From Sciurus carolinensis (taxonomy: Eukaryota > Chordata > Mammalia > Rodentia > Sciuridae), in the NCBI RefSeq assembly GCF_902686445.1, contig NC_062219.1, forward strand, positions 48,449,056 to 48,513,055: a stretch of DNA of 64,000 bases. Reading direction: 5' to 3'. The stretch's first letter is position 1. Each line of letters starts with the position of its first letter. A model generated the notes under the pieces. It was not told the origin of the DNA and made no database searches. It worked only from the letters and a program-made list of their open reading frames with translations. Shown here piece by piece: positions 1 to 57,832 of this stretch. Both the position numbers and the translations under genes were made by a program.

Positions 1-1963
1 TCATCTCATCGAAAGAGATTCCCACAGACTAAAGATGAAAGGATGGGAAAAAACATACCATGCACATGGACTCAGCAAAAAAGTGGGGGTATCCACCCTT
101 ATATCAGATAAAGCAGACTTAAAACCAAAATTAGTTAGAAGGGATAAAGAACATTTCATACTTCTTAAGGGAAGCATAAGTCAATAAGACATAACAATCA
201 AAAATATTGATGCCCCAAGCAATAGCTCATCCATTTACATCAAACAAATCCTTCTCAGTTCCATGAACCAAATAGACCACAACACAATAATACTAGGTGA
301 CTTTAACACTCCTCTCTCACCACTGGACAGATCTTCCAAACAAAAATTGAACAAAGATCATAGATTTTAATAACACAATAATTTAGAATATTCCATCCAC
401 AATGAGCAAATACACTTTCTTCTCAGCAGCACATGGATCCTTCTCTAAAATAGACCATATGTTATGCCACAAAGTCACTCTTAGCAAATACAAAAAGATA
501 CAGTTACTACCTTGTATTCTATCAAGTCTTAATGGAATGAAATTAGAAGTGAATGACAAAATAAAAAACAGAAACAACTCCAATGCCTGGAGATTGAAAA
601 ATACACTATTAAATGATGCATGGATAACAGAAGACATCAGGGGGGAAATAAATAAAATTCTTGGAGGTAAACAAGAAGAAAGATACAACATATCAAAATC
701 TCTGGGACATTATGAAAGCAGTACTAAGAGGAAAATTCATTGCATAGAGCACATTCAATAAAAGAAGGAAAAGTAAAAAAATAAACAACCTAACATTACA
801 GCTCAAAGTCCTAGAAAAAGAAGAACACAGCAACACCAAAAGAGTAGAAGACAGGAAGTAGTTAAAATCAGAGCTGAAATCAATGAAATTGAAACAAAAT
901 AAACAATCAAAAAAATTGACAAAATAAATAGTTGGTTCTTTGAAAAAGTAAACGAAATTGATAAACCCTTAGCTACACTAAAAAAGAGATGGGAGAAAAC
1001 TCAAATTACTAAAATTTGTGATGAAAAAGGAAATATCACAACAGACACGATTGAAATATAAAGCATAATTAGAAACTATTTTGAAAATCTATACTCCAAC
1101 AAAAAAGAAAATCTCAAACACATCAAAAGGTTTCTACAGACATATGATCCGACCAAACTGAATCAGGAGGACATACACAATTTAAATAGATCAATTTCAA
1201 GCAATGAAATAGAAGAAGTCGTCAAAAACCTACCAATAAAGAAAAGTCTGGGACCAGATGGATTCTCAGCTGAGTTCTACAAAACCTTCAAAGAAGAGCT
1301 CATTCCAATACTCCTCAAAGTATTCCATGAAATAGAAGAGGAGGGAACCCTCCCAAACTCATTCTATGAGGCCAATATCACCCTGATACCTAAACCAGAC
1401 AGACACACATCGAGGAAAGAAAATTTCAGACCAATATCCTTAATGAACATAGATGCAAAATTCTTAACAAAATTTTAGCAAATTGCATACAAAAGCATAT
1501 TAAAAAGAAAGTGCACCATGATCAAGTGGGTTTTATCCCAGGGATGCAAGGTTGGTTCAACATTTGGAAATCAATAAATGTAATTCACCATGTCAGCAGA
1601 CTTAAAGTTAAGAATTACATGATTATTTCAATAGATGCAGGAAAACATTTGATAAAATACAGCACCCCTTCATGCTCAAAACACTAGTAAAATTAGGGAT
1701 AGTAGGAACATTCCTCAACATTGTAAAGGCCATCTATGCTAAGCCCATGGCCAACATCATTCTATATGGACAAAAACTGAAATAATTCCCCCTAAAACTG
1801 GGACCAAGGCAGGGATGCCACTTTCACCACTTCTATTCAACATTGTCCTTGAAACTCTAGCCAGAGCAATTAGACAGATCAAAGAAATTGAAGGGATACA
1901 AATAGGAAAAGAAGAACTCAAACTAACCCTGTTTGCCGATGACATGATTCTATATTTAGAGGA
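1..1963 (+). pseudogene. L1 ORF2 remnant: endonuclease and N-terminal reverse transcriptase part
   Basis: Translation in shifting frames matches the intact ORF2 from after the catalytic glutamate of the endonuclease domain to just past the reverse transcriptase FADD motif, which is readable as [12 protein letters not shown] near 1929-1963. Damage includes an in-frame TAA at 185-187 where the intact copy has Gln, and frameshifts after about 360, 760 and 1460. The endonuclease Ser-Asp-His triad (SDH in the intact copy) reads Ser-Ser-Leu at about 522-530, so the nuclease would be inactive even if the frame were open. The 119-codon open stretch at 402-761 is only a surviving piece of this domain. 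Confidence 0.92.
1958..1963 (+). repeat. Target-site duplication, left copy, of the solo LTR
   Basis: The hexamer agagga immediately precedes the LTR and recurs at 2422-2427. Joining the flanks across one copy restores the continuity of L1 ORF2 after the FADD motif. Confidence 0.8.
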
Positions 1964-2421
1964 TGTCAGGATCTTAAGCCCCCTTGCTCTTCTCAACCAG
2001 CGACAAGGGAAGGGACACTCCCTAACAATGTCAGACCAGGATAGGTAGGGCTGACAGACCGCCTGTTCCCAGCCCTCCATGCGGAGGACAATCAGACGCG
2101 TCAGGGAGACCAGTCACACCAGGAACTCGTTTATTGAGGAAATCACACAGCTTTTATGTAGGGTGGGGGCTAGGTGGGAACCAATCAGCTTAAAGGTCAG
2201 CAAGGCATGGGGGAGTTTACACTGGTGAGACTCCCATAGGACTATATGGCAAGCAGGAGCTGATCACGTTTGCGGAACTGTTGTTAACCAATCCCTGACG
2301 GCGTTCCGATTTATCGTTATCAACCTTTGAAACTGCCTTTGAGGCCTTGATCTTGCTCACTCGCTTTGCTCAGCGAGTAAGGAGTCAGCCTGAGTTAGTT
2401 AACATGTCATTAGTCCCAACA
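1964..2421 (-). mobile_element. Class II (ERVK/IAP-like) solo LTR inserted in L1 ORF2
   Basis: This 458-bp block has no counterpart in other L1 copies and is bounded by 6-bp direct repeats, agagga, at 1958-1963 and 2422-2427. On the minus strand it begins TGTTGGG and ends CTGACA, giving the canonical TG...CA termini. A TATA-like CATAAAAG (complement of 2151-2158) lies about 15 bp before an AATAAA signal (complement of 2130-2135), a compact U3-R layout typical of class II LTRs. The six-base target duplication also fits ERVK. No internal gag/pol/env sequence or second LTR is present, so it is a recombined solo LTR. It must be younger than the L1 it interrupts. Confidence 0.85.
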
Positions 2422-2427
2422 AGAGGA
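2422..2427 (+). repeat. Target-site duplication, right copy, of the solo LTR
   Basis: This is the second copy of agagga, directly after the terminal CA of the LTR. L1 ORF2 homology resumes with the codons that follow in the intact copy. Confidence 0.8.
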
Positions 2428-4104
2428 GCCAAAAAATTCCACCAGAAAACTTCTAGAACTCATAAATTCAGTAAAGTAGCAGGATATAAAATCAATGCTC
2501 ATAAATCTAATGCATTTCTATTCATGAGTGATGAATCCTCTGAAAGAGAAATTAGGAAAATCACTCCATTCACAATAGCCTCCAAAAAAAAAAAAAAAGA
2601 AAAAAAACTTGGGAGTCATCTAACAAAAGAGGTGAAAGATCTCTACAATGAGAACTACAGAACACTAAAGAAAGAAATCAGAGAAAACCTTAGAAGACAG
2701 AAAGATCTCCCATGTTCTTGGATAGGCGGAATTAACATTGCCAAAATGGCCGTTCTACCAAAGGCACTATACAGATTCAATACAATTCCAATTAAAATCC
2801 CAATGACATTCCTCATAGAAATAGAGAAAGCAATCATGAAATTCATTTGGAAGAATAAGAGACCCAGAATAGATAAAGCAATCCTTAGCTGGAAGAATGA
2901 AGCAGAAGGTATCACAATACCAGAACTTCAACTATGCTACAGAGCAATAGTAACAAAAACAGCATGGTATTGGCACCAAAATAGACAGATATATCAATGG
3001 TACAGAATGGAGGACACAGAGACAAACCCACATAAATACAGTTTTCTCATACTAGACAAAGGTGCCAAAAACATATAATGGAGAAAAATAGCATCTTTAA
3101 CAAATAGTGCTGGGAAAACTTGAAATCCATATGCAACAGAATGAAACTAAACCCCTATCTCTCACCCTGCACAAAACTCAACTCACAATAAATCAAGGAC
3201 CTTGGAATCAGACCAGAGACCCTGCACCTTATAGAAGAAAAATTACATCCAAATCTTCATTATGTTGGCTTAGGACCAGAATTCCTTTACATGACTTCCA
3301 AAGAACAAGAAATAAAAGCAGGAATCAATAATTGGGATAGATTCAAACTAAAAAGCTTTTTCTCAGCAAAGGAAACTATCATCAATGTGAACAGAGAGCC
3401 TACAGAGTGGGAGAAAGTCTTTGCCAAACATACTTCAGATAGAGTACTAATCTCCAGAATCTATAAAGAACTCAAAAAACTTTACAACAAGAATACAAAC
3501 AACCCAATCAGTAAATGGGATAAGAAAATAAGCAGACACTTAATAGAAGACCATCTACAAGCAATCAACAGATATATAAAAAAATGTTGAATACCTCTAG
3601 TAATAAAAGAAATATACATCAAAACTACCCTAAGATTCCATCTCACCCCAATTAGAATGACTATTATCAAGAATACAAGCAACAATAGGTTTTGGCAAGA
3701 ATGTGGGGAAAAAGGTACACTCATACATTGCTGTTGGGTGTTGTAAATTAGTGCAGCCACTATGGAAAGCATTGTGGAGATTCCTTAGAAAACTTGAAAT
3801 GGAACCACCATTTGACCCAGCTATCCCACTCCTTGGCCTATACCAAAAAGACTTAAAATCAGCAAACTACAGTGATGCAGGCACATCAATGTTCATAGTT
3901 GCTCAATTCACAATAGCCAGATTGTGGAACCAACCTAGATGCCCTTTTATTGACGAATGGATAAAGAAACTGTGGTATATATATACAATGGAATATTACT
4001 CAGTCATAAAGAATAATAAAATTATGGAATTTTCAGGTAAATGGATGCAATTAGAGAATATCATGCTAGGTGACATAAGCCAATCCCAAAAAACCAAAGC
4101 CTGA
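2428..4104 (+). pseudogene. L1 ORF2 remnant: C-terminal reverse transcriptase, thumb and Cys/His region
   Basis: Homology to the intact ORF2 resumes after the solo LTR and continues to the ORF2 stop. The longest open piece (2347-3078) starts inside the LTR and then reads L1 codons for about 200 residues. An A-run at 2585-2608 has expanded where the intact copy encodes SKKIKYLG. A frameshift near 3075 and others at about 3290 and 3590 break the rest. The C-terminal Cys/His motif region at about 3690-3750 is frameshifted and its first Cys is replaced (FWQECG where the intact copy has CWRGCG). It ends at a TGA at 4102-4104, close to where the intact ORF2 stops. Confidence 0.9.
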
Positions 4105-4345
4105 ATGATCTCTCTGATAAGCAGATGATGATGATACATAATGAGGAGTGGAGGGAGGCAAGAATGGAGGAAGGACGAATTGTGTAGAGGAAAAAGAGGG
4201 GTAGGGAAGAGGTGGGGGAAGGAAAATTAACAGAATGAGACAAACATCATTATCTTATGTATGATTACACAAATGGTGCAACTCTACTTCGTGTATAAAC
4301 AAGAGTTATAACCCATTTGTGTACAATGAATCAAAATAAATAAAT

Positions 4346-29388: not shown

Positions 29389-29400
29389 AAATGAGTCCTT
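29389..29400 (+). repeat. Target-site duplication, left copy (twin-primed L1)
   Basis: aaatgagtcctt precedes the inverted L1 segment; the partner at 31645-31656 differs by one C/T change. Confidence 0.75.
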
Positions 29401-30841
29401 GATTAATTGTATTTCATCTTCTGTGAAGTGACTGTCAGTTCCTTAGCCCATTTATTGATTGGGTTATTTGATTTTTTGGTGTTGAGTTTTTTGAGTTCTC
29501 TATATATCCTGGAGATTAGTACTCTATCTGAGGTTTGTGTGGTAAAGATTTTCTTCCATTCTGCAGGCTCTCTCTTCATGTTATTGATTGTTTCCTTTGC
29601 TGAAAAGAAGCTTTTTAGTTTGAATCCACCGCATTTATTGAATCTTGATTTTACTTCTTTCACTTTAGGTGTCTGGTAAAGGAAGTCACTTCCTAAACCA
29701 ACATGGTGGAGATTTGGTCCTGCTTTTTCTTCTATTAGGCACAGGGTCTCTGTTCTACTGCCTAAGTCTTTGGTCCACTTTGAGTTGATTTTTGTGCAGG
29801 GTGAAAGATAGAGGTTTATTTTTACTTTGCTACATATGGATTTCCAGTTTTCCCAGCACCTTTATTGATTAGGCTGTCTTTTCTCCAATGTACGTCTTTG
29901 GCACCTTTGTCTAGTATAAGATAACCCTATTTATGTAGGTTCGTCTCTGTGTCTTCTACTCTGTACCATTGGTCTACATGTCTATTTTGGTGTCAATTCC
30001 ATGGCATTTTTGTTACTACAGCTCTGTAGTACAGTTTAAGGTCTAGTATTGTGATGCCTCCTGCTTCACTCTTCTTTCTAAGGATTACTTTAGCTATTCC
30101 AGGTCTCTTAATTTTCCAAATGAATTTCATGATTTCTTTTTCTTGTTCTATCTATGAAGCATGTCATTGAGATTTTAATAGGAATTACATTAAATCTGTA
30201 TAACAGTTTGGGGAGTATTGCCATTTTGACAATTTTAATTCTGCCTGTCTAAGAGCATGTGAGATCTTTCCATCTTCTAAGTTCTTCTTAGAGTTCTTTA
30301 TTTAGTGTTTTATAGTTTCCTTGTAGAGGGCTTTCACTTCTTTCGTTAAGTTGATTCACAAGTATTTTATTTTTTTAAGCTATTGTGAATGGGATAGTTT
30401 TCCTAATTTCTCCTGCAGTGGATTCATTACTGATGTAGAGAAATGCATTTGATTTCTGTGTATTGATTTTATATCCTGGATTCATTTATTAGTTCTAAAA
30501 GTTTTCTGGTAGAGTTTTTGATCTTCTAAATATAGAATCATGCCCTCAACAAATACAGATAGTTTGAGTTCTTCTTTTCTTATTCCTATCCCTTTAATTT
30601 CTTTTTTCTGTCGGATTGCTCAAGGATTATTTTGATAGAAGTGGTAAAGAGGGTATCCCTGTACTGTTTCAATTTTTAGAGGGAATGCTTTCAACTATTC
30701 TCCATTTAGAATGATGATGGCCTTGGACTTAGCATAGATATCTTTTACAATGTTGAGGGATGTTTTTACTATCCCTAGTTTTTCTAGTGTTTTGAACATA
30801 AATGGATGCTGAATTTTGCCAAATGCTTTTTCTGCATCGAA
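29401..30841 (-). pseudogene. L1 ORF2 fragment, inverted half
   Basis: The minus strand encodes a diverged ORF2 segment running from just after the ISIDAEKAF (motif A) region through the palm to the linker before the Cys/His region. The best open stretch (29403-29663) reads SRFNKCGGFKLKSFFSAKE, matching [19 protein letters not shown] of the intact copy. Several stops and frameshifts are present. Confidence 0.88.
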
Positions 30842-31370
30842 TGTTCATCATCTCTAGTGATTAGAGGAATGCAAATCAAAACTACTCTAAGATTTCACCT
30901 CACTCTAGTCAGAATGGCAATTATCAAGAATATAAGCAACAATAAGTGTTGGTAAGGACGTGGGGGAAAAGGTATACTCATACATTGCTGGTGAGACTGC
31001 AAATTGGTGCAGCCACTATGGAAAACGGTATGGATATTCCTCAGGAAACTTGGAATGGAAATACCATTTGACCCAGCTATCCCATTCCTTTGGTTTATAC
31101 CCAAAGGACTTAAAATCAGCATACTATAGTGACACAGCCACATCAATATTTATAGCAGCTCATTTCACAATAGCTATGCTATGGAACCAACTTAGATGCC
31201 CTTCAACAGATGAACGGATAAAGAAAATGTGGCACATATACACAATGGAATATTACTCAGTCTTAAAGAATAATGAAATTATGGCATTTGCCGGTAAATG
31301 TATGGAGTTGGAGAATATTGTGCTAAGCAAAATAAGTCAAACCCAAATGTCAAATGGGTTTCTCTGGTAA
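30842..31370 (+). pseudogene. L1 ORF2 C-terminal fragment
   Basis: The open stretch from about 30960 reads through the C-terminal region ([21 protein letters not shown], then [20 protein letters not shown]) to the end of ORF2. The first two Cys of the Cys/His motif are disrupted by mutation and frameshift. The 3' UTR and tail follow to 31644. Confidence 0.88.
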
Positions 31371-31644
31371 GTGGATGCTGATACATAACAGGGGAGTAAG
31401 TCAGGAAGAATGAAAGAACTTTGGATTGTGCAGAGGGGAGTGAGGGGAGGGGAGGGGGGTTGTGGCAATGGGAAGGATGGTGGAATGAGACAGACTTTAT
31501 TATCCTATATTAATGTATGATTACACTATAGGTGTGACTCTGCATGTTCAGTCAGAGGAAGAAGTTGTGCTCCATTTGTGTGTAATGTGTCAAAATGCAT
31601 TCTACTGTTATGTATAACTAATCAGAACAAAATTTTTAAAAAAC

Positions 31645-32279: not shown

Positions 32280-32990
32280 TCATACCATTTCTGGTGATTT
32301 CATTCCTTCCCATAGTCTGGAGTTTCTATTTGGAACCATTTCCCTTTAGCCTGACAAACCTTTTTAGCATTGTTATATTAAAAGTCCACCAATAATAATT
32401 TCTACCAGTTTTTTCTTTTAATATATTTACATCTTCATAGTTGAAGGACAGTTTCATTGAATACATAATTTAAGGTGAAAGGTTTCTTGTTTCACCTTTA
32501 ACATTTTAAAATTATTAAACTGTTGTCTTTTTTTCTGCCTTGTTTATAATGAGAAAAGTAAAGTTTCTATAGTTTTTAACATTGCTCTTCTACATAGGTA
32601 ACCAAGTATACAATGTGTAATTTTAATTTGCATACTTTTGAGGTATTCTTTTCTCACCTTTATATTGGGTAATTTGCTTAATATGTGCTACAGTGTGGTT
32701 TACTTCATGTTATCTTGTTTGAGATGAAATAAAATGAAATTTTGGATCAGTACTTTGAAGTTTTTCACCTTATTAGAAAAAATATTAATTCACTATTTCT
32801 TTGAATTCATTTTCTATTCTATATTCTCTCCAGAGTTTCATTCATGTTGTCATATATATATTGATATTTTATTAGCATTTTTGCTGAGTAATATTCTCGT
32901 GTACTGATGGATGGCCCAACCATTTGAATATCTGCTTACTGGTTGGTATATGTTTGTGACTTATTTTTCCTCAATTTTTGACTTTTTAGC
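32280..32990 (-). mobile_element. Ancient L1 relic (ORF1-end region and another fragment)
   Basis: The plus-strand text around 32420-32580 resembles the antisense of the ORF1 C-terminal region (tgaaggacagtttcattgaa, then 'cttgtttataatgagaaaag'). A piece at about 32885-32960 (gctgagtaatattctcgtgt) resembles the antisense of an ORF2 C-terminus. Divergence is high and the order is not simple, so this is tentative. Confidence 0.4.
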
Positions 32991-32999
32991 ACTTATCTT

Positions 33000-33935
33000 C
33001 AAAATGTATAAACAACTTACAAAACTTTACACCAAAAATACAAATAACCCAATCAATAAATGGGCCAAGGAACTGGACAGACACTTTAAAGAAGACATAC
33101 AGGTGATTAATAAATATATGAAAAAGCATTCAACATCTCTAGTTATTAGAGAAATGCAAATTAAAACAATGATAAGATTTCATCTTATTCCAATTGGAAA
33201 GGCTGTTATCAAGAACACAAACAATAATAGCTGTTGGCATGGATGTGGGGAAAAAGGCACACTTTTACATTGCTGGTGGAGTTGCAATTTGGTGCAGCCA
33301 CTCTGGAAAGCAGTATGGAGAATCCCAAGAAAACTTGGAATGAACCCACCTTTTGATCCATTTATCCCACTCCTCGATTTATACCCAAAGGATCTAAAAT
33401 CAGCAAACTACAGTAACACAATCACATCAATATTTATAGCAGCTCAGTTCACAATAACTAGATTGTGGAACCAACCTTGATGCCCTTCAACAGATGAAAG
33501 GATAAAGAAACTCTGGTACATATACACAATGGAATACTATTCAGCCATAAAGAAGAATAATATTATGGCATTTGCAAATAAAGGGATGGAAGTGAAGAAT
33601 GTCATGCCAAGTGAAATAAGCCAATCCCATAAAACCAAAGGCCAAATGTTTTCCCTGATAAGTGGATGATAATATATAATGGGGATGGTGGGGGTGGGGA
33701 GAGAGAGAAGAATGAAGGAACTTTAGATTATGTAGAAGGAAATGAGAGGTGGGAGGGTATGAAAAATCGTGGAATGAGACAGACATCATTACCCTATGTA
33801 CATGTATGATTACACAAATAGTATGAATCCACATCATGTACAACCATAGAAGCAAAATAATGTAAAATGACTCATTTGTGTAAAATGAGTCAAAATGCAG
33901 TCTGTAAAAATTTAAAAAATAAATAATTGATTAAA
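33000..33935 (+). mobile_element. 5'-truncated L1
   Basis: It begins abruptly within ORF2 at the position equal to [16 protein letters not shown] of the intact copy and runs through the ORF2 C-terminus and a full-type 3' UTR to an A-rich tail at 33908-33935. Simple 5' truncation is the usual outcome of L1 insertion. I could not identify a convincing target duplication. Its 3' UTR lacks the telomere-like insert and has the distal portion missing from the intact copy. Confidence 0.9.
33007..33660 (+). pseudogene. L1 ORF2 C-terminal fragment
   Basis: Open from the truncation to a TGA at 33478-33480, reading [20 protein letters not shown] and later the Cys/His motif [18 protein letters not shown] (CX3CX7HX4C), which is intact here. 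After the stop the homology continues to the ORF2 end. An upstream ATG at 32911 opens the same frame through non-L1 sequence, which is coincidental. Confidence 0.88.
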
Positions 33936-44254: not shown

Positions 44255-44263
44255 AAAGGAGGT
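44255..44263 (+). repeat. Target-site duplication, left copy (young twin-primed L1)
   Basis: aaaggaggt, preceded by ATTT, giving an ATTT/AAAG site close to the L1 endonuclease consensus. It recurs at 45508-45516. Confidence 0.8.
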
Positions 44264-45266
44264 TGATTCCCAAGTATTTTATTTTTTTCGATGCTATTGT
44301 GAATGGGGTAGTTTTCCTAATTTCTCTTTCTGAAGATTCATCACTTATGTATAAAAATGCTTTAGATTTATGTGCATTGATCTTATATCCCGCTACTTTA
44401 CTGAATTCACTTATGAGATCTAAAAGTTTTCTGGTGGAATTTCCTGGTTCCTCTAAGTATATAATCATATCATCAGCAAACAGGGATAGTTTGAGTTCTT
44501 CTTTGCCTATTTGTATCCTTTTAATTTCTTTGGTCTGTCTAATTGCTCTGGCTAGAGTTTCAAGGATGATATTGAAAAGAAGTGGTGAAAGAGGGCATCC
44601 CTGCCTTGTTCCAGTTTTAAGGGGGAATGCTTTCAGTTTTTCACCATTTAGAATGATATTAGCCATGGGTTTAACGTAGATGATCTTTACAATGTTAAGG
44701 AATGTTCCCACTATCCCTATTTTTTCTAGTGTTTTGAGCATGAAGGGGTGCTGTATTTTATCAAATGCTTTCTCTCCATCTATTGAAATAATCATGTGAT
44801 TCTTGACTTTAAGTCTATTGATATGGTGAATTACATTTATTGATTTCCTGATGTTGAACCAACCTTGCATCCCTGGGATGAAACCCACTTGATCATGGTG
44901 CACTGTCTTTTTAATATGTTTTTGTATGCGATTTGCTAAAATTTTGTTGAGAATTTTTGCGTTGATGTTCATTAAGGATATTGGTCTGAAATTTTCTTTC
45001 CTCGATGTGTCTCTGTCTGGTTTAGGTATCAGGGTGATATTGGCTTCATAGAACGAGTTTGGGAGGGTTCCCTCCTCTTCTATTTTATGGAATACTTTGA
45101 GAAGTATTGGAATGAGCTCTTCTTTAAAGGTTTTGTAGAACTCGGCTGAAACCCCATCTGGTCCTGGACTTTTCTTTGTTGGTAGGCTTTTGATGACTTC
45201 ATCTATTTCATTACTTGAAATTGGTCTATTTAAATTGTGTATGTCCTCCTCGTTCGGTTTAGGCAA
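44264..45266 (-). pseudogene. L1 ORF2 reverse transcriptase fragment, still open
   Basis: An uninterrupted 337-codon frame (stop at 44253-44255, just beyond the L1 junction) covers the reverse transcriptase finger and palm. It contains [53 protein letters not shown] (motif A; Gly replaces Ala), [14 protein letters not shown] and [11 protein letters not shown] (motif C). There is no endonuclease domain, C-terminal region or promoter, so it cannot act alone. The open frame fits recent insertion rather than selection. Confidence 0.92.
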
Positions 45267-45507
45267 TTCATATGTCTCTAGAAACCTGTTGGGTTAGGGA
45301 GGGGGGCAAGAATGGAGGAAGGAAGGACTGTATAGAGGGAAAAGAGGGGTGGGAGGGGTGGAGGGGAAGGGAAAAATAACTAAATGAATCAAACAGCATT
45401 ACTCTATGTAAACTTATGATTACACAAATGGTATGCCTTTACGCCATGTACAAACAGAGAAACAACATGTATCCCGTTTGTTTACAATAAAATAATAATA
45501 ATAATAA
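44264..45507 (+). mobile_element. Young 5'-inverted (twin-primed) L1 nested in a MaLR LTR
   Basis: The left part (44264-45291) is L1 on the minus strand, matching about 53320-54348 of the intact copy. By eye over a few hundred bases there are roughly seven differences per hundred. At about 45291 it switches to plus-strand L1 3' UTR (AGGGAGGGGGGCAAGAATGG), running through TTACACAAATGGTATGCC to an AATAATAATAATAAA tail. It is flanked by aaaggaggt at 44255-44263 and 45508-45516. Unlike the copy at 29.4 kb, everything between the two segments (the ORF2 C-terminus) was lost. The GGGTTAGGG at the junction is related to the telomere-like insert of the intact L1. Confidence 0.9.
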
Positions 45508-51580: not shown

Positions 51581-51595
51581 TGTGAAGTTTATTTT
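51581..51595 (+). repeat. Target-site duplication, left copy (full-length L1)
   Basis: tgtgaagtttatttt, identical to 57818-57832. The right copy is followed by AAATATG, so the original site read ATTTT/AAAT. This is an L1 endonuclease target with the correct strand polarity for a minus-strand insertion. Confidence 0.95.
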
Positions 51596-51638
51596 ATTTT
51601 ATTTTATTTTATTTATTTATTTTTTTATTTATTTTTTT
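51596..51638 (-). other. A-rich tail of the full-length L1
   Basis: On the L1 strand the tail contains AATAAATAAATAAA and AAAATAAAATAAAA units rather than pure A. These supply AATAAA motifs that the shortened 3' UTR itself lacks. Confidence 0.9.
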
Positions 51639-51809
51639 ACGTTTACATAGGGTAATGATGTTTCTTTTTTTTCCCCTTCCCCCCCCACCCCTCCCACCCT
51701 TTTCCCTTTATACAGTCCTTCTTTCCTTCATTCTTACCGCTCTCCTTAGCCTAACTCTAAACCTAACCCTAAACCTAATGCTAACCCCTCCCACCCACAT
51801 TATATGTCC
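51639..51809 (-). other. Short 3' UTR of the full-length L1, G-rich with telomere-like insert
   Basis: Between the ORF2 stop and the tail lie about 170 bp. On the L1 strand it holds a telomere-like segment (51745-51787; units such as GGGTTAGG, TTTAGGG) and then a G-rich run (about 51671-51706; at least five runs of three or more G) able to form a G-quadruplex. It ends CCCTATGTAAACGT. Other copies in the window continue for about 100 bp more, with a 'gattacacaaatgg' segment and an AATAAA before their tails. Confidence 0.88.
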
Positions 51810-54800
51810 TCATCCGCTTATCAGCGAGATCATTCGTCCTTTAGTTTTTTGAGATTGGCTTATCTCACTTAGCATGATATTCTCCAATTTCGACCATTTG
51901 CCTACAAATGCCATAATTTTATCATTCTTCATTGCGGAGTAATATTCCATTGTATAAATATGCCACAGTTTCTTTATCCATTCATCAACTGAAGGGCATC
52001 TAGGTTGGTTCCACAATCTGGCTATGGTGAATTGAGCAGCAATGAACATTGATGTGGCTGTATCTCTGTAGTATGCTGATTTTAAGTCCTTTGGGTATAG
52101 ACCAAGGAGTGGGATAGCTGGGTCAAATGGTGTTTCCATTCCAAGCTTTCTGAGGAATCTCCACACTGCTTTCCAGAGTGGCTGCACTAATTTGCAACTC
52201 CACCAGCAATGTATGAGTGTTCCTTTTTCACCACATCCTCGCCAACACCTATTGTTGCTTGTGTTCTTGATAATCGCCATTCTAATTGGGGTGAGATGAA
52301 ATCTTAGGGTAGTTTTGATTTGCATTTCCCTTATTACTAGGGATGTTGAACATTTTTTCATATATCTGTTGATTACTTGTACATCTTCTTCTGTGAAGTG
52401 TCTGTTCATTTCCTTAGCCCATTTGTTGATTGGATTATTTGTATTCTTCGTGTAGAGTTTTTTGAGTTCTTTATAGATTCTGGAAATTAGTGCTCTATCT
52501 GAGGTATGGTTGGCAAAAATATTCTCCCACTCTGTAGGCTCTCTCTTCACATTTCTGATAGTTTCCTTTGCTGAGAGAAAGCTTTTTAGTTTGAATCTAT
52601 CCCAGTTGTTGATTCTTGCTTTTATTTCTTGTGCTATGGGAGTCCTGTTAAGGAAGTCTGATCCTAAGCCAACAAGTTGAAGATTTGTACCTATTTTTTC
52701 TTCTATAAGATGCAGGGTCTCTGGTCTGATTCCAAGGTCCTTGATCCATTTTGAGTTGAGTTTTGTGTAGGGTGAGAGATAGGGGTTTATTTTCATTCTA
52801 TTGCATATGGTTTTCCAGTTTTCCCAGCACCATTTGTTGAAGAGGCTATCTTTTCTCCATTGCATATTTTTGGAACCTTTGTCTAGTATGAGAAAATTGT
52901 ATTTATTTGGGTTTGTGTCCATGTCCTCTATTCTGTACCATTGATCTACCTGTCTATTTTGGTACCAATACCATGCCGTTTTTGTTACTATTGCTTTGTA
53001 GTAGAGTTGAAGATCTGGTATTGCAATACCCCCTGCTTCACTCTTTCTGCCAAGGATTGCTTTAGCTATTCTGGGTTTTTTATTCTTCCAGATGAATTTC
53101 ATAATTGCTTGCTCTATTTCTGCAAGGTACATCATTGGGATTTTAATTGGAATTGCATTGAATCTGTATAGCACTTTAGGTAGTATAGCCATTTTGACGA
53201 TATTAATTCTGCCTATCCAGGAACATGGGAGATCTTTCCATCTTCTAAGGTTTTCTTGAATTTCTTTCTTTAGTGTTCTGTAGTTCTCATTGTAGAGGTC
53301 TTTCACCTCTTTTGTGAGATTGATTCCCAAGTATTTTATTTTTTTCGATGCTATTGTGAATGGGGTAGTTTTCCTAATTTCTCTTTCTGAAGATTCATCA
53401 CTTATGTATAAAAATGCATTGGATTTATGAGCATTGATCTTGTAACCTGCTACTTTACTGAATTCACTTATGAGTTCTAAAAGTTTTCTGGTGGAATTTC
53501 CAGGTTCCTCTAAATATATAATCATGTCATCAGCGAACAGGGATAGTTTGAGTTCTTCTTTTCCTATTCGTATCCCTTTAATTTCTTTGGTTTGTCTGAT
53601 TGCTCTGGCTAGAGTCTCAAGGACGATGTTGAATAGAAGTGGTGAAAGAGGGCATCCCTGCCTTGTTCCAGTTTTTAGGGGGAACGCTTTCAGTTTTTCA
53701 CCATTTAGAATGATATTAGCCATGGGCTTAGCGTAGATTGCCTTTATAATGTTTAGGAATGTTCCCACTACCCCACTTTTTTCTAGTGTTTTGAGCATGA
53801 AGGGATGCTGTATTTTATCGAATGCTTTTTCTGCATCTATTGAAATAATCATGTGATTCTTAACTTTAAGTCTGTTGATATGGTGAATGACATTTATTGA
53901 TTTCCGAATGTTGAACCAACCTTGCATCCCTGGGATAAAACCCACTTGATCGTGGTGCACTATCTTTTTAATATATATTTGTATGCAATTTGCTAAAATT
54001 TTGTTGAGAATTTTTGCATCGATGTTCATTAAGGATATTGGTCTGAAATTTTCCTTCCTCGATGTGTCTCTGTCTGGTTTAGGTATCAGGGTGATATTGG
54101 CTTCATAGAATGAGTTTGGGAGGGTTCCCTCCTCTTCTATTTCATGGAATAGTTTGAGGAGTATTGGAATGAGCTCTTCTTTAAAGGTTTTGTAGAACTC
54201 AGCTGAGAACCCATCTGGTCCTGGACTTTTCTTTGTTGGTAGGCTTTTGATGACCTCTTCTATTTCATTGCTTGAAATTGGTTTATTTAGGTTGTGTATG
54301 TCCTCCTCGTTCAGTTTAGGTAATTCATATGTCTCGAGAAATTTGTTGATGTCTTCGAGGTTTTCTGTTTTGTTGGAGTATAGATTTTCGAAATAGTTTC
54401 TAATTATGTTTTGTATTTCACTTGTGTCTGTTGTGATGTTTCCTTGTTCATTCCGAATTTTAGTAATTTGAGTTTTCTCCCTCTTTCTCTTTGTTAGTGT
54501 GGCTAAGGGTTTATCAATTTTATTTATTTTTTCAAAGAACCAACTATTTATTTTGTTAATTTTTCCGATTGTTTCTTTTGTTTCGATTTCGTTGATTTTG
54601 GCTCTGATTTTAACTATTTCCTGTCTTCTACTACTTTTGGTATTGGTCTGCTCTTCTTTTTCTAGTGCTTTGAGCTGTAGTGTTAAGTCGTTTATTTGTT
54701 GATTTCTACTTCTTTTTTTGAATGCACCCCATGAAATAAATCTTCCTCTAAGTACTGCTTTCATAGTGTCCCAGAGATTTTGATATGATGTGTCTTTGTT

Positions 54801-55658
54801 CTCGTTTACTTCTAAGAATTTTTTTATTTCCCTCCTGATGTCTTCTGTTATCCATTCATCGTATAATAGTGTATTATTTAGTCTCCAAGTATTGGAGAAG
54901 TTTCTGTTTTTTATTCTGTCATTTATTTCTAATTTCAATCCATTATGATCTGATAGAGTACAAGGTAGTATCTCTATCTTCTTGTATTTGCTAATAGTAG
55001 CTTTGTGGCATAAAATATGGTCTATTTTAGAGAAGGATCCATGTGCTGCTGAGAAGAAAGTGTATTCGTTCTTTGTTGGATGGTATATTCTATATATGTC
55101 CGTTAAGTCTAAATTGTTGATTGTGTTGTTGAGATCTATAGTTTCTTTATTCAATTTTTGTTTGGATGATCTATCCAGTGGTGAGAGAGGTGTGTTAAAA
55201 TCGCCTAGTATAATTGTGTTGTGGTCTATTTGATTTCTGGAATTGAGAAGGATTTGTTTGACGTACGTGGATGAGCCCATGTTCGGGGCATAGATATTTA
55301 TGATTGTTAAGTCTTGCTGATTTATGCTTCCCTTAAGCAGCATGTAATGTCCTTCTTTATCCCTTCTGACTAGTTTTGGTTTGAAGTCCACATTATCTGA
55401 AATGAGGATGGATACTCCAGCTTCTTTGCTGTGTCCGTGTGCATGGTATGTTTTTCCCCATCCTTTCACCTTTAGTCTATGGGTGTCTCTTTCTATGAGG
55501 TGAGTCTCTTGCAGGCAGCATATTGTTGGATTTTTCTTTTTAATCCAATCTGCCAGTCTGTGTCTTTTGATTGATGAATTCAGGCCATTAACATTCAGGG
55601 TTATTATTGTGATATGATTTGTATTCCCAGTCAATTGACTCATATTTGTTTTTGACAT
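51810..55658 (-). CDS. L1 ORF2 protein: endonuclease and reverse transcriptase, 1282 aa
   Basis: ORF2 protein nicks target DNA and copies L1 RNA from the nick (target-primed reverse transcription). An AP-type endonuclease domain fills about residues 10-245: N22, E51 in LQETH, D and N in ILGDFN (about 153-155), KIDH, and the SDH triad (about 236-238). The reverse transcriptase spans about 500-780, with [17 protein letters not shown], motif [12 protein letters not shown] (D608), [14 protein letters not shown] and motif C FADD (residues 708-711). A C-terminal Cys/His motif CX3CX7HX4C has C1138, C1142, H1150 and C1155. Length is slightly above the human protein (1275 aa). The ATG chosen lies 31 bp after the ORF1 stop; translation is probably by reinitiation, as known for L1. 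No defect is visible, but activity cannot be judged from sequence alone. Confidence 0.97.
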
Positions 55659-55689
55659 GATTTGGTTTCTCCTTTATTTGGCTATTCCT

Positions 55690-56736
55690 TTAGGTTAGTT
55701 CCTCCTGTTGCTGATTTGCATCGTTGTTTTTCATCTCTTCCTCATGGAATATTTTGCTGAGAATGTTCTGTAATGCTGGCTTTCTTTTTGTAAATTCCTT
55801 TAGCTTTTGTTTATCATGGAAGGATCTTATTTCATCGTCAAATTTGAAGGTAAGTTTTGCTGGGTATAAGATTCTTGGTTGGCATCCGTTTTCTTTCAGG
55901 GCTTGGTAAATGTTGTTCCAGGCCCTTCTGGCTTTTAGGGTCTGGATTGAAAAATCTGCTGATATTCTTATTGGTTTCCCTGTGAATGTAATTTGATTCT
56001 TTTCTCTCGCGGCCTTTAAAATTCTGTCTTTATTTTGTATGTTAGGTATTTTCATAATAATGTGTTTTGGTGTGGGTCTGTTGTAATTTTGTATGTTTGG
56101 AGTTCTATAAGCCTCTTGTATTTGGTTTTCCATTTCATTCTTCAGATTTGGGAAATTTTCTGATATTATTTCATTGAAGAGATTGTTCATTCCTTTGGTT
56201 TGTTTCTCTAAGCCTTCCTCAATCCCAATAATTCTTAAATTTGGCCTTTTCATGATATCCCATAATTCTTGTAGATTCTGTTCATGATTTCTTACCATGT
56301 TTTCTGTTTGGCCAACTTTGCTTTCGAGATTAAATAATTTGTCTTCAATGTCTGAGGTTCTGTCTTCCAGGTGCTCCATTCTATTGGTTATGCTTTCTAT
56401 GGAGTTTTTAACTTGGTTTATTGTTTCCTTCATTTCAAGTATTTCAGTTTGGTTTTTTTTCAGTATCTCTAACTCTTTATTGAAATGATCTCTTGTTTCC
56501 CGTATTTGGTCTTTTAACTGTTGATTGGTGCGATCATTTAATGCCTGCATTTGCTCTTTCATCTCCTCCTTCAATGCCTGCATTTGCTCTTTCATCTCCT
56601 CATTTGCTTCCCTGATCATTTTAATTACGTACATTCTGAGCTCCCTTTCTGACATTTCTTCTGCTGTGCTGTCATTGGGTTTTATTGATGTAGTATCTAG
56701 GTTTGTTTGGGATATTTTCTTCCCTTGTTTTCTCAT
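55690..56736 (-). CDS. L1 ORF1 protein: RNA-binding nucleic-acid chaperone, 348 aa
   Basis: ORF1 protein forms trimers that coat L1 RNA in cytoplasmic particles and assist reverse transcription. Residues 1-30 are a polar N-terminus. About 30-155 is a charged heptad coiled coil with an 11-residue repeat (MKEQMQALKEE, then MKEQMQALND). The RRM begins at RPNLRIIGIEE (about 164-174) and contains AAREKNQITF (242-251). The C-terminal domain follows with LKARRAW (267-273) and YPAKLTF (291-297). The start ATG has A at -3. It is close in length to the human protein (338 aa). The coiled coil is the most lineage-variable part, whereas the RRM and C-terminal motifs are conserved and uninterrupted. Confidence 0.96.
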   Translation of the reverse strand: MRKQGKKISQTNLDTTSIKPNDSTAEEMSERELRMYVIKMIREANEEMKEQMQALKEEMKEQMQALNDRTNQQLKDQIRETRDHFNKELEILKKNQTEILEMKETINQVKNSIESITNRMEHLEDRTSDIEDKLFNLESKVGQTENMVRNHEQNLQELWDIMKRPNLRIIGIEEGLEKQTKGMNNLFNEIISENFPNLKNEMENQIQEAYRTPNIQNYNRPTPKHIIMKIPNIQNKDRILKAAREKNQITFTGKPIRISADFSIQTLKARRAWNNIYQALKENGCQPRILYPAKLTFKFDDEIRSFHDKQKLKEFTKRKPALQNILSKIFHEEEMKNNDANQQQEELT

Positions 56737-56969
56737 ATTGGTCAGCTGTCAGTGGGACCCTGAGATATTGCAGTTTTCCGCTATTGGCTTATAGTGTCCC
56801 AGTAGATTTCCAGTGTATCACCTCCCAGCCTTCAGTAGCCTGATGTCTTGGAGGAATCTGATAAAGCAGCGTATCCGAAGAAAACTGCCCCTAGCCCCCT
56901 ACTGTTTCCACGATTTGGAACTGGCTCTGTACTGAAATGCTCTCACTGTGGGCCTGCACCGTGCAGCTG

Positions 56970-57211
56970 GCCGTGTGGGAGGAGCTCACTGCCGGAGTGT
57001 GGAAGGCTACCTTGGGAAGACTCTAGCTGCCCTGCCCGGCTCCGATAAGCCACCTCTATCTGGGCCTGTCCCCCGGGCCGAGATTTACCTAGTGGGCAGA
57101 CTCACCCGTGACTCTATTTCAGTCCAAGTCTCTCAATGCCTCCCCTTCTTAACTCCTGGGTTCTGGAGCGACAGGGGGTGCAGTCTCCCTCTAGGCCGCC
57201 ATCTTGGATCG
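56970..57211 (-). repeat. 5' UTR module, downstream copy
   Basis: About 242 bp, near-identical to 57575-57816 in its YY1-proximal 170 bp and more diverged toward the other end. Confidence 0.85.
57196..57208 (-). promoter_or_regulatory. Second YY1-type site, 605 bp downstream
   Basis: A second copy of AAGATGGCGGCC at the 5' end of the downstream module. It could start a shorter L1 transcript that still contains both ORFs. Confidence 0.65.
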
Positions 57212-57574
57212 TCCCGAGAAGAGAGCCTGCAGCCGGAGTGGGCAGAGCCGCCTGAAGAGGTCTCTGGCTGCCCTGCCCTGATCCCAGAGGTTGTTTGTGG
57301 ATCGAGGCTCTCCGTTGGTTCGGGGGCTTGTGGCTGGTTCTATGTAGAAAGTCTCTCACTGGGCGGTCAGCTCCGAGAAGCTAGCCTTGAACGGCACCTC
57401 CCACCGCAGGGGTCCAGACTACTTGGGGAAGTCTCTGGCTGCCCTGTCTGGACCCTGAATCTGCTTGCGTGCCAGAGTACGCTGAGCTGCACTGGCTCCG
57501 GGACTTGGAGCTTGTTCTGGTCAGGAAGGCTCTCACTAGCGGGCCAGTTCCGTTCCGAGAACCTGGAGAAGCTG

Positions 57575-57816
57575 GCTGTGTGGGCGGGGCCCACTGCCGG
57601 AGTGCGCAGGGCTGCCTGTGGATGACTCTAGCTGCCCTGCCCGGCTCTGATAAGCCACCTCTGTCTGGGCCTGCCCCCCGGGCCGAGCTTTACCCAGTGG
57701 GCAGACTCACCCGTGGCTCTATTTCAGTCCGAGTCTCTCAATGCCTCCCCTTCTTAACTCCTGGGTTCTGGAGCGACAGGGGGTGCAGTCTCCCTCTAGG
57801 CCGCCATCTTGGATCG
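57575..57816 (-). repeat. 5' UTR module, upstream copy
   Basis: First module of the element; its YY1 end forms the L1 5' terminus. Confidence 0.85.
57801..57813 (-). promoter_or_regulatory. YY1-type site at the L1 5' end
   Basis: The complement reads ATCCAAGATGGCGG..., matching the YY1 consensus (AAGATGGCGGC) within the first 20 bp of the element. In human L1 a YY1 site in this position directs accurate initiation; that role is inferred here. Confidence 0.7.
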
Positions 57817-57817
57817 C

Positions 57818-57832
57818 TGTGAAGTTTATTTT
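57818..57832 (+). repeat. Target-site duplication, right copy (full-length L1)
   Basis: tgtgaagtttatttt, identical over 15 bases to 51581-51595 and adjacent to the L1 5' end. Confidence 0.95.

Follow-up and report, generated by a model that had tools for sequence, protein, structure and literature searches.

Among the closest described systems, human and other mammalian LINE-1 (L1) elements share the order 5' UTR, ORF1, ORF2 and 3' UTR. According to the available text of two papers (PMC6454616 and PMC9022269), mouse L1Md elements of types G and T carry tandem promoter units (monomers) of about 200 bp, which vary in number and have 5' ends near a YY1 site, and rat L1Rn elements carry promoter repeats of about 600 bp. 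Such rat repeats are described for few elements and in at most two copies, and the YY1 motif is given as GCCATCTT, both in the accessible part of PMC6454616. Among squirrels, the thirteen-lined ground squirrel is one cited case of lost L1 activity (available text of PMC5857283 and PMC3501640). Our literature search, at the level of the text accessible to it, retrieved no study of Sciurus L1; a single article with both Sciurus and LINE-1 terms concerns lncRNAs. Likewise, no transposon dating was found in the accessible text of the chipmunk genome paper PMC13135541.

A full-length L1 element with two open frames

The window (the whole stretch of DNA analyzed here, 64,000 nucleotides) contains a full-length L1 of 6,222 bp at positions 51596..57817. 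Our analysis reproduced the coordinates and the two open frames of 348 and 1282 aa given in a preliminary description of this DNA, and assigned the element to the minus strand, which that description had left out; all features of the element mentioned below lie on this strand. The element has the mammalian L1 order. Its 5' UTR begins with segment A (57570..57817), which comprises the first unit head and the 5' end of the element, followed by segment B (57213..57569), the remainder of a 605-bp unit, segment A2 (56965..57212), a second copy of the unit head that matches 57570-57816 at 93%, and the non-repeated, tether-like segment C (56737..56964), which adjoins ORF1. The 3' UTR contains a telomere-like TTAGGTTTAGGGTTAGG run (51750..51791) and a G-rich polypurine tract (51668..51712), and the element ends in an A-rich patterned tail of AAAT/AAAAT units (51596..51638). 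All 21 copies that we checked have the telomere-like run, with one repeat altered in copy L017. To our knowledge, human L1 has neither a repeated 605-bp promoter unit nor a telomere-like stretch in its 3' UTR, and the squirrel element differs from it in both respects.

ORF1 (55690..56736, 348 aa) encodes an RRM-like domain (PF02994, E 1.7e-24) and a C-terminal, dsRBD-like domain (PF17490, E 1.4e-17). ORF2 (51810..55658, 1282 aa) encodes an endonuclease (PF03372, E 3.9e-21), a reverse transcriptase (RT; PF00078, E 8.6e-45) and a C-X3-C-X7-H-X4-C region. Nearly the whole length of ORF2p (residues 6-1282) aligns with solved human L1 ORF2p (best score 1,989.6 bits), and residues 115-334 of ORF1p align with solved LINE-1 proteins. 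ORF2 keeps the catalytic residues of both enzymes as well as the Cys/His region, and the domain content agrees with the preliminary description. The RRM-like and C-terminal L1 domains of ORF1, the APE-type endonuclease and RT with full-length alignment to L1 ORF2p, and the A-rich tail, target duplication and TTTT/AA site place the element in the LINE-1 clade. Overall, it looks like an ordinary full-length LINE-1 in a slightly worn copy.

The element is flanked by a perfect 15-bp target-site duplication, TGTGAAGTTTATTTT, at 51581..51595 on its 3' side and at 57818..57832 on its 5' side, the latter at TTTT/AAAT; the duplication becomes 16 bp if one base common with the tail is counted. This agrees with the perfect duplication at an ATTTT/AAAT site reported earlier, and with the TTTT/AA target and 15-bp duplication of human and other mammalian L1. 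The duplication, the site and the tail point to ordinary target-primed reverse transcription as the probable route of insertion at this TTTT/AA site. ORF2p would have cut one strand of the target, begun synthesis at the A-rich tail and reverse transcribed the RNA up to its 5' end. No short SINE box motif was found when the window was searched for one, and Rfam and tRNA scans of it returned nothing. As one would expect, ORF1p had no tblastn match among phage records.

A family of near-identical copies in the same genome

In a genome search with the 805-bp 3' end, the 39 other matches among the 40 scored, out of 2,409 first-look candidates, were 97-99% identical, and in a search with ORF1 the 39 others among the 40 scored, out of 5,144, were 98-99% identical. 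In addition, an exact 58-base stretch of the promoter unit head, which contains CpG sites, occurs 505 times in the genome, and its reversed control 0 times. We read 26 copies (20 first, five later and the window copy), which were selected for likeness to the window copy, and the shares given for them describe this selection rather than the genome. Element extents were defined leaving out BLAST pieces shorter than 300 bp or below 97% identity (first set) or 96.5% (later set).

The 5' UTR is reached by 19 of the 26 copies, of which 16 are bordered by a perfect duplication of 13-17 bp that differs from copy to copy; the other three (L017, L023 and L032) are without a perfect duplication of at least 13 bp. 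Across all copies read, 19 of 26 have their own perfect duplication of 13-17 bp. The seven without one of at least 13 bp are compatible with an origin of the similar copies by segmental duplication or assembly error instead of retrotransposition. However, this origin is contradicted for most copies read by their individual duplications, and the unique sequence bordering the window element at its 5' side occurs only once in the assembly; we consider it most improbable. The genome contains numerous near-identical copies that carry target duplications of their own, as a recently active family would leave behind. The recent mobility proposed in the preliminary description is hence upheld for the family, and the absence of close relatives in the genome, which it had named as evidence to the contrary, is not what the 39 best 3'-end matches show.

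Divergence was calculated leaving out the columns before ORF1, with CpG columns also dropped from the non-CpG figures. Among the 171 pairs formed by the 19 copies that reach the 5' UTR, mean divergence is 1.32% (minimum 0.53%), and mean non-CpG divergence is 1.01% (minimum 0.40%). The tree of these copies is star-like, with good support for only one of its 16 inner branches, and its youngest end branches measure 0.19-0.21% (non-CpG). Both ORFs have the full 348/1282 aa in four of the 26 copies (the window copy, L021, L026 and L030), and they are near complete in two more (L010, 348/1278; L014, 334/1282).

It might be argued that L1 is extinct in the tree-squirrel lineage too, and that these frames are fossils left open through luck. 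For a single copy such luck is not rare: after 29 private coding substitutions (the number from our first count, with 14 copies), both frames would be stop-free with a probability of 0.20-0.30 if all changes are assumed neutral, which makes the open frames by themselves a weak argument against chance. More telling are the near-identical full-length copies at other places in the genome, some of which are just as open. With several further copies open and such short youngest end branches, the fossil reading was rejected as very unlikely; the 505 exact 58-mers, intact despite the CpG sites within, also speak against it. The family is instead very young and has spread recently; its members probably kept moving into the recent past, and may do so to this day.

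A putative tandem promoter of 605-bp units

The putative 5' UTR promoter, which the preliminary description had not mentioned as such, consists of tandem 605-bp units, each with a YY1-like site at its head. In the window copy, this site, AAGATGGC, which we take to be a YY1-like motif, lies at 57803..57810 at the 5' end of the first unit and at 57198..57205 at the head of the second. The number of units upstream of A2 varies from 0 to 2 among copies. In 13 of 19 copies the 5' end lies no more than 20 bp from a unit start (binomial 1.2e-11, with the 20-bp limit chosen after the ends had been seen), and in the remaining six it lies elsewhere. The variable number of tandem units and the fixed place of 13 of the 19 5' ends are features of a monomer-type promoter. 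Judging from the 5' ends, the YY1-like site at the unit head may set the start of transcription, and whole units would be gained or lost among copies while the promoter survives.

These features resemble those of the mouse L1Md promoters, in the available text on which tandem units, variable number and 5' ends near the YY1 site are likewise described; the likeness drawn here is in unit arrangement and 5' ends, and the mouse units are much shorter than 605 bp. The rat L1Rn repeats are similar in unit length. We give about an even chance to the proposal that tree-squirrel L1 has its own monomer-type promoter, a self-contained 605-bp unit with a YY1-like start that would be renewed at each insertion as mouse monomers are.

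A long antisense frame of up to 229 codons was also observed in the 5' UTR. It was compared with 200 same-letter shuffles per copy. In 15 of the 19 copies 0-13 shuffles reached its length; the number was 27 in L023, 78 in L031, 91 in L022 and 166 in L033, where L031 and L022 are copies without a full unit. Since the copies are not independent of each other, the frame is recorded here simply as an observation.

Private changes and source status of the window copy

The preliminary description had called the window copy source-like. Its open frames, its endonuclease and RT catalytic residues, its Cys/His region and a promoter with two unit heads would all suit a currently competent source element. 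However, the window copy has 26 private substitutions versus 5 in L021 and 7 in L025 (19 copies, tail end left out; the first count, with 14 copies, gave 31 for the window copy). Its end branch is 0.57% in the second tree (19 copies) and 0.66% in the first, against about 0.2% for the youngest. The closest ORF1 sequences among the copies read, which are the top-scoring of the 39 others in the genome search, differ from it at 13 of 1047 positions. Moreover, ORF2 codon 558 (53985..53987), in the RT, encodes Cys in the window copy, whereas among 118 listed homologues Arg is found in 112 and Cys in none; the replacement is non-conservative and affects a conserved RT residue. The window copy also has Glu where 61 of 68 homologues carry Lys. 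On the private changes and the RT Cys, the source-like status was not retained: that the window copy is itself a competent source is unlikely, and it would probably be an inefficient one at present.

In ORF2, the first count of private changes comprised nine replacement and ten silent ones (binomial p 0.005 against an expected replacement share of 0.77; the computed fractions give 0.73-0.79 among non-stop changes). This ratio suggests that part of the window branch is older than the insertion, and any age calculated from the branch is therefore an upper bound. Under background substitution rates, the window copy would have been inserted at most about 1-4 million years ago.

Host lineage and L1 loss in ground squirrels

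The closest proteins are UniRef predictions of L1 from Sciurus vulgaris, Marmota and Spermophilus dauricus. ORF1p is 89% identical to that of S. vulgaris, 59-61% to Marmota clusters and 60% to S. dauricus, and ORF2p is 83% identical to S. vulgaris over 73%; the S. vulgaris copies listed, compared as proteins, belong to another lineage or are older. In addition, cytochrome b from a mitochondrial insert has its best matches in Sciurini clusters. By these matches, the host is a tree squirrel of the tribe Sciurini. Taken together, we hold with considerable confidence that the window contains a member of a very young Sciurini L1 family, spread by target-primed insertion and carrying a 605-bp tandem promoter, in a copy that is probably an inefficient source.

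According to the preliminary description, an intact copy from a related species would bear directly on the fading or loss of L1 activity in the thirteen-lined ground squirrel lineage. Since the host is a tree squirrel, ground-squirrel L1 extinction is bracketed only. A young tree-squirrel L1 cannot contradict the loss in the thirteen-lined ground squirrel, and any loss is placed on the ground-squirrel side.

If the monomer-type promoter is confirmed, rodents would have gained or retained L1 promoter monomers on more than one occasion, tree squirrels being far from Mus, and such a promoter would help to explain why L1 has stayed lively in tree squirrels. The tandem promoter offers a second setting, outside mouse, for asking how L1 keeps its promoter despite 5' truncation. 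Lineages without L1 activity serve as natural experiments on the role of mobile elements in mammal genomes. For the ground squirrel, the young tree-squirrel family provides a living sister group, so that when and why L1 was lost may be compared within one rodent family.

Structure of the L1 element

The minus strand of the window carries a full-length L1 at 51596-57817, recognized by its reading frames, domains and flanking duplication. Both ORFs are open: ORF1 (55690-56736, minus strand) encodes 348 aa with RRM-like and dsRBD-like domains, and ORF2 (51810-55658, minus strand) encodes 1282 aa with endonuclease and reverse transcriptase (RT) domains, as assigned by Pfam. In phmmer alignments, ORF1p residues 115-334 matched a solved LINE-1 ORF1p, and ORF2p residues 6-1282 matched the solved human ORF2p. 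ORF2p retains the Asn/Glu/Asp/His residues of the endonuclease, the aspartates of the RT and a C-X3-C-X7-H-X4-C region; for all of these residues, we assume the human numbering and roles. The element ends in an A-rich tail of AAAT/AAAAT units and is flanked on both sides by a perfect 15-bp duplication at a TTTT/AAAT target. The preliminary description of a full-length element with two open ORFs, endonuclease, RT and Cys/His residues and a perfect 15-bp target duplication was thus confirmed.

The 3' UTR carries a telomere-like TTAGGTTTAGGGTTAGG stretch (51750-51791), which is kept in all 21 young copies checked; one repeat of it is altered in L017, one of the other young copies from this genome (handles between L010 and L033). 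The stretches compared from four older L1 copies contain just one short GGGTTAGGG. Older L1 pieces lie in four places of the window: 1-4274 (87% to the young element), 29399-31388 (approximately 80%), 32988-33695 (81%) and 44259-45416 (93%). This ladder fits a single L1 lineage that evolved in place. At 29399-31388 and 44259-45416, one part is inverted relative to the other, an arrangement that resembles twin priming.

A young L1 family

The genome (2.815 Gb, 752 contigs) was searched with the 3' 805 bp and with ORF1. The former yielded 39 matches besides the window with 97-99% identity (best 40 of 2,409 first-look candidates scored), and the latter 39 other matches with 98-99% identity over the whole length (best 40 of 5,144 candidates scored). 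Near-identical copies, one part of the check proposed in the preliminary description, were therefore found among the best-scored matches. Twenty of the 39 3'-end matches, five of the 39 ORF1 matches and the window copy were compared (26 copies). Four of them (window, L021, L026 and L030) have both ORFs at 348 and 1282 aa, and L010 (348/1278) and L014 (334/1282) are near full length. The 5' UTR is reached by 19 copies, 16 of which have perfect duplications of 13-17 bp, all different; in the remaining three, the duplication is 11 bp (L032), 15 bp with one mismatch (L023) or not clear (L017).

Across the 171 pairs of these 19 copies, the mean difference from ORF1 to the 3' end was 1.32% (0.53-2.03%), or 1.01% (0.40-1.74%) outside CpG. 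Their tree is star-like: one of its 16 inner branches has good support. End branches are shortest in two copies, at about 0.2% each, and the window copy has one of 0.57%. Taking mammalian substitution rates as 1.5-4e-9 per site and year, these lengths correspond to approximately 0.5-1.3 and 1.4-3.8 million years, respectively. The family is young and comprises many independent young insertions, and we infer that it may still be active.

A putative promoter of tandem units

The 5' UTR (56737-57817) is arranged as A(248)-B(357)-A2(248)-C(228), in which A and B form a 605-bp unit, A2 is the head of a second unit and C is the non-repeated part adjoining ORF1. A and A2 are 93% alike at a spacing of 605 bp, and both unit heads of the window copy contain the YY1-like motif CCAAGATGGCGGCC. 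The number of units varies among the 19 copies: upstream of A2 there is no unit in L022 and L031, a partial unit in L012, L015, L019 and L020, one A-B unit in the window copy, L010, L013, L017, L021, L023, L029, L030, L032 and L033, one unit plus part of a further B in L025 and L026, and two units in L014. The genome contains 505 exact occurrences of a 58-mer from the unit head (reversed control, 0); among the 100 places listed, as counted by eye, the spacing was 604-607 bp for 15 neighbouring pairs and 1,210 bp for one.

Most 5' ends fall at unit heads: for 13 of 19, the distance to a unit start is at most 20 bp (binomial 1.2e-11, with the 20-bp limit chosen post hoc and ends scored by eye), and the other six are inside A or B. 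L025 and L026 share an identical 5' end within B and have different target duplications, and L012 and L015 share one at the start of B; these common ends are possible secondary start sites. YY1-positioned initiation would direct transcription from a unit head, ORF1p and ORF2p would form a particle, and target-primed reverse transcription would insert the copy.

The putative squirrel promoter resembles the monomer promoters of mouse in its repeated units and in 5' ends near YY1-like sites. In passages of PMC6454616 and PMC9022269, mouse monomers are about 200 bp with 5' ends near YY1 sites, and rat 600-bp repeats occur in few elements, in at most two copies; there, the paper covering the rat repeats places mouse repeats alone close to the 5' end.

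The 5' UTR also has an open frame in antisense direction (56948-57625, plus strand), with a length of up to 229 codons; it exceeds nearly all shuffles in length in 15 of the 19 copies and not in the other four, the copies being non-independent.

Window copy and source status

The preliminary description had called the window copy source-like. Comparison of the 19 copies argues otherwise, and it is probably not the source element: it has 26 private substitutions, compared with 5 in L021 and 7 in L025. Since L015 (33), L023 (36) and L029 (38) have more, it is not the oldest copy. The closest ORF1 sequences among the copies compared differ from it at 13 of 1047 positions.

Residues were counted in the best 120 homologues listed per ORF, as far as aligned. 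The window copy has Cys at ORF2 position 558, which belongs to the RT domain; none of 118 homologues has Cys there (Arg 112, Gln 3, His 2, Trp 1). It has Glu at ORF2 position 79 (Lys in 61 of 68) and Thr at ORF1 position 252 (Lys or Arg in 114 of 120). Several further private changes match residues frequent in relatives. A first count gave nine replacement and one silent change in ORF1, and nine and ten in ORF2. The ORF2 ratio implies some past constraint, and therefore part of the private branch may be older than the insertion.

Squirrel relatives and the ground-squirrel claim

The nuclear assembly contains a mitochondrial insert (positions 849-2586 of L034, a stretch of G000 contig C25) in which cytochrome b and ND6 are both open under the mitochondrial code; a second insert, in opposite orientation, lies approximately 245 kb away. 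Translated with the vertebrate mitochondrial code, the cytochrome b has its matches in 90%-identity clusters named after Leptosciurus similis (96%), Sciurus aberti (95%) and Syntheosciurus (94%), a resolution above the species level; no marmot or ground-squirrel names appear among the 120 best listed clusters. Leptosciurus, Sciurus and Syntheosciurus are genera that we take to belong to the tribe Sciurini.

Among the homologues listed, a predicted Sciurus vulgaris protein shares 89% identity with ORF1p, Marmota-named clusters share 59-61% and a Spermophilus dauricus-named cluster shares 60%. Together with the cytochrome b matches, this makes a tree squirrel of the Sciurini the most likely host. 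Passages of PMC5857283 and PMC3501640 cite Platt and Ray 2012 for L1 quiescence or loss in the thirteen-lined ground squirrel, a claim on which the window element was said to bear if it came from a related species. The young family stands; because the present genome is that of a tree squirrel, the reported loss is not contradicted. In the part of a U6 pseudogene survey concerning Ictidomys (PMC4476161), 29 unique sequences are given, 24 with duplications, which shows past L1 work at an age not stated there. On the ground-squirrel side, a lead comes from ORF1p predictions of 327-340 aa: Marmota-named clusters have 13 and 11 members, and a Spermophilus dauricus-named cluster has 3.
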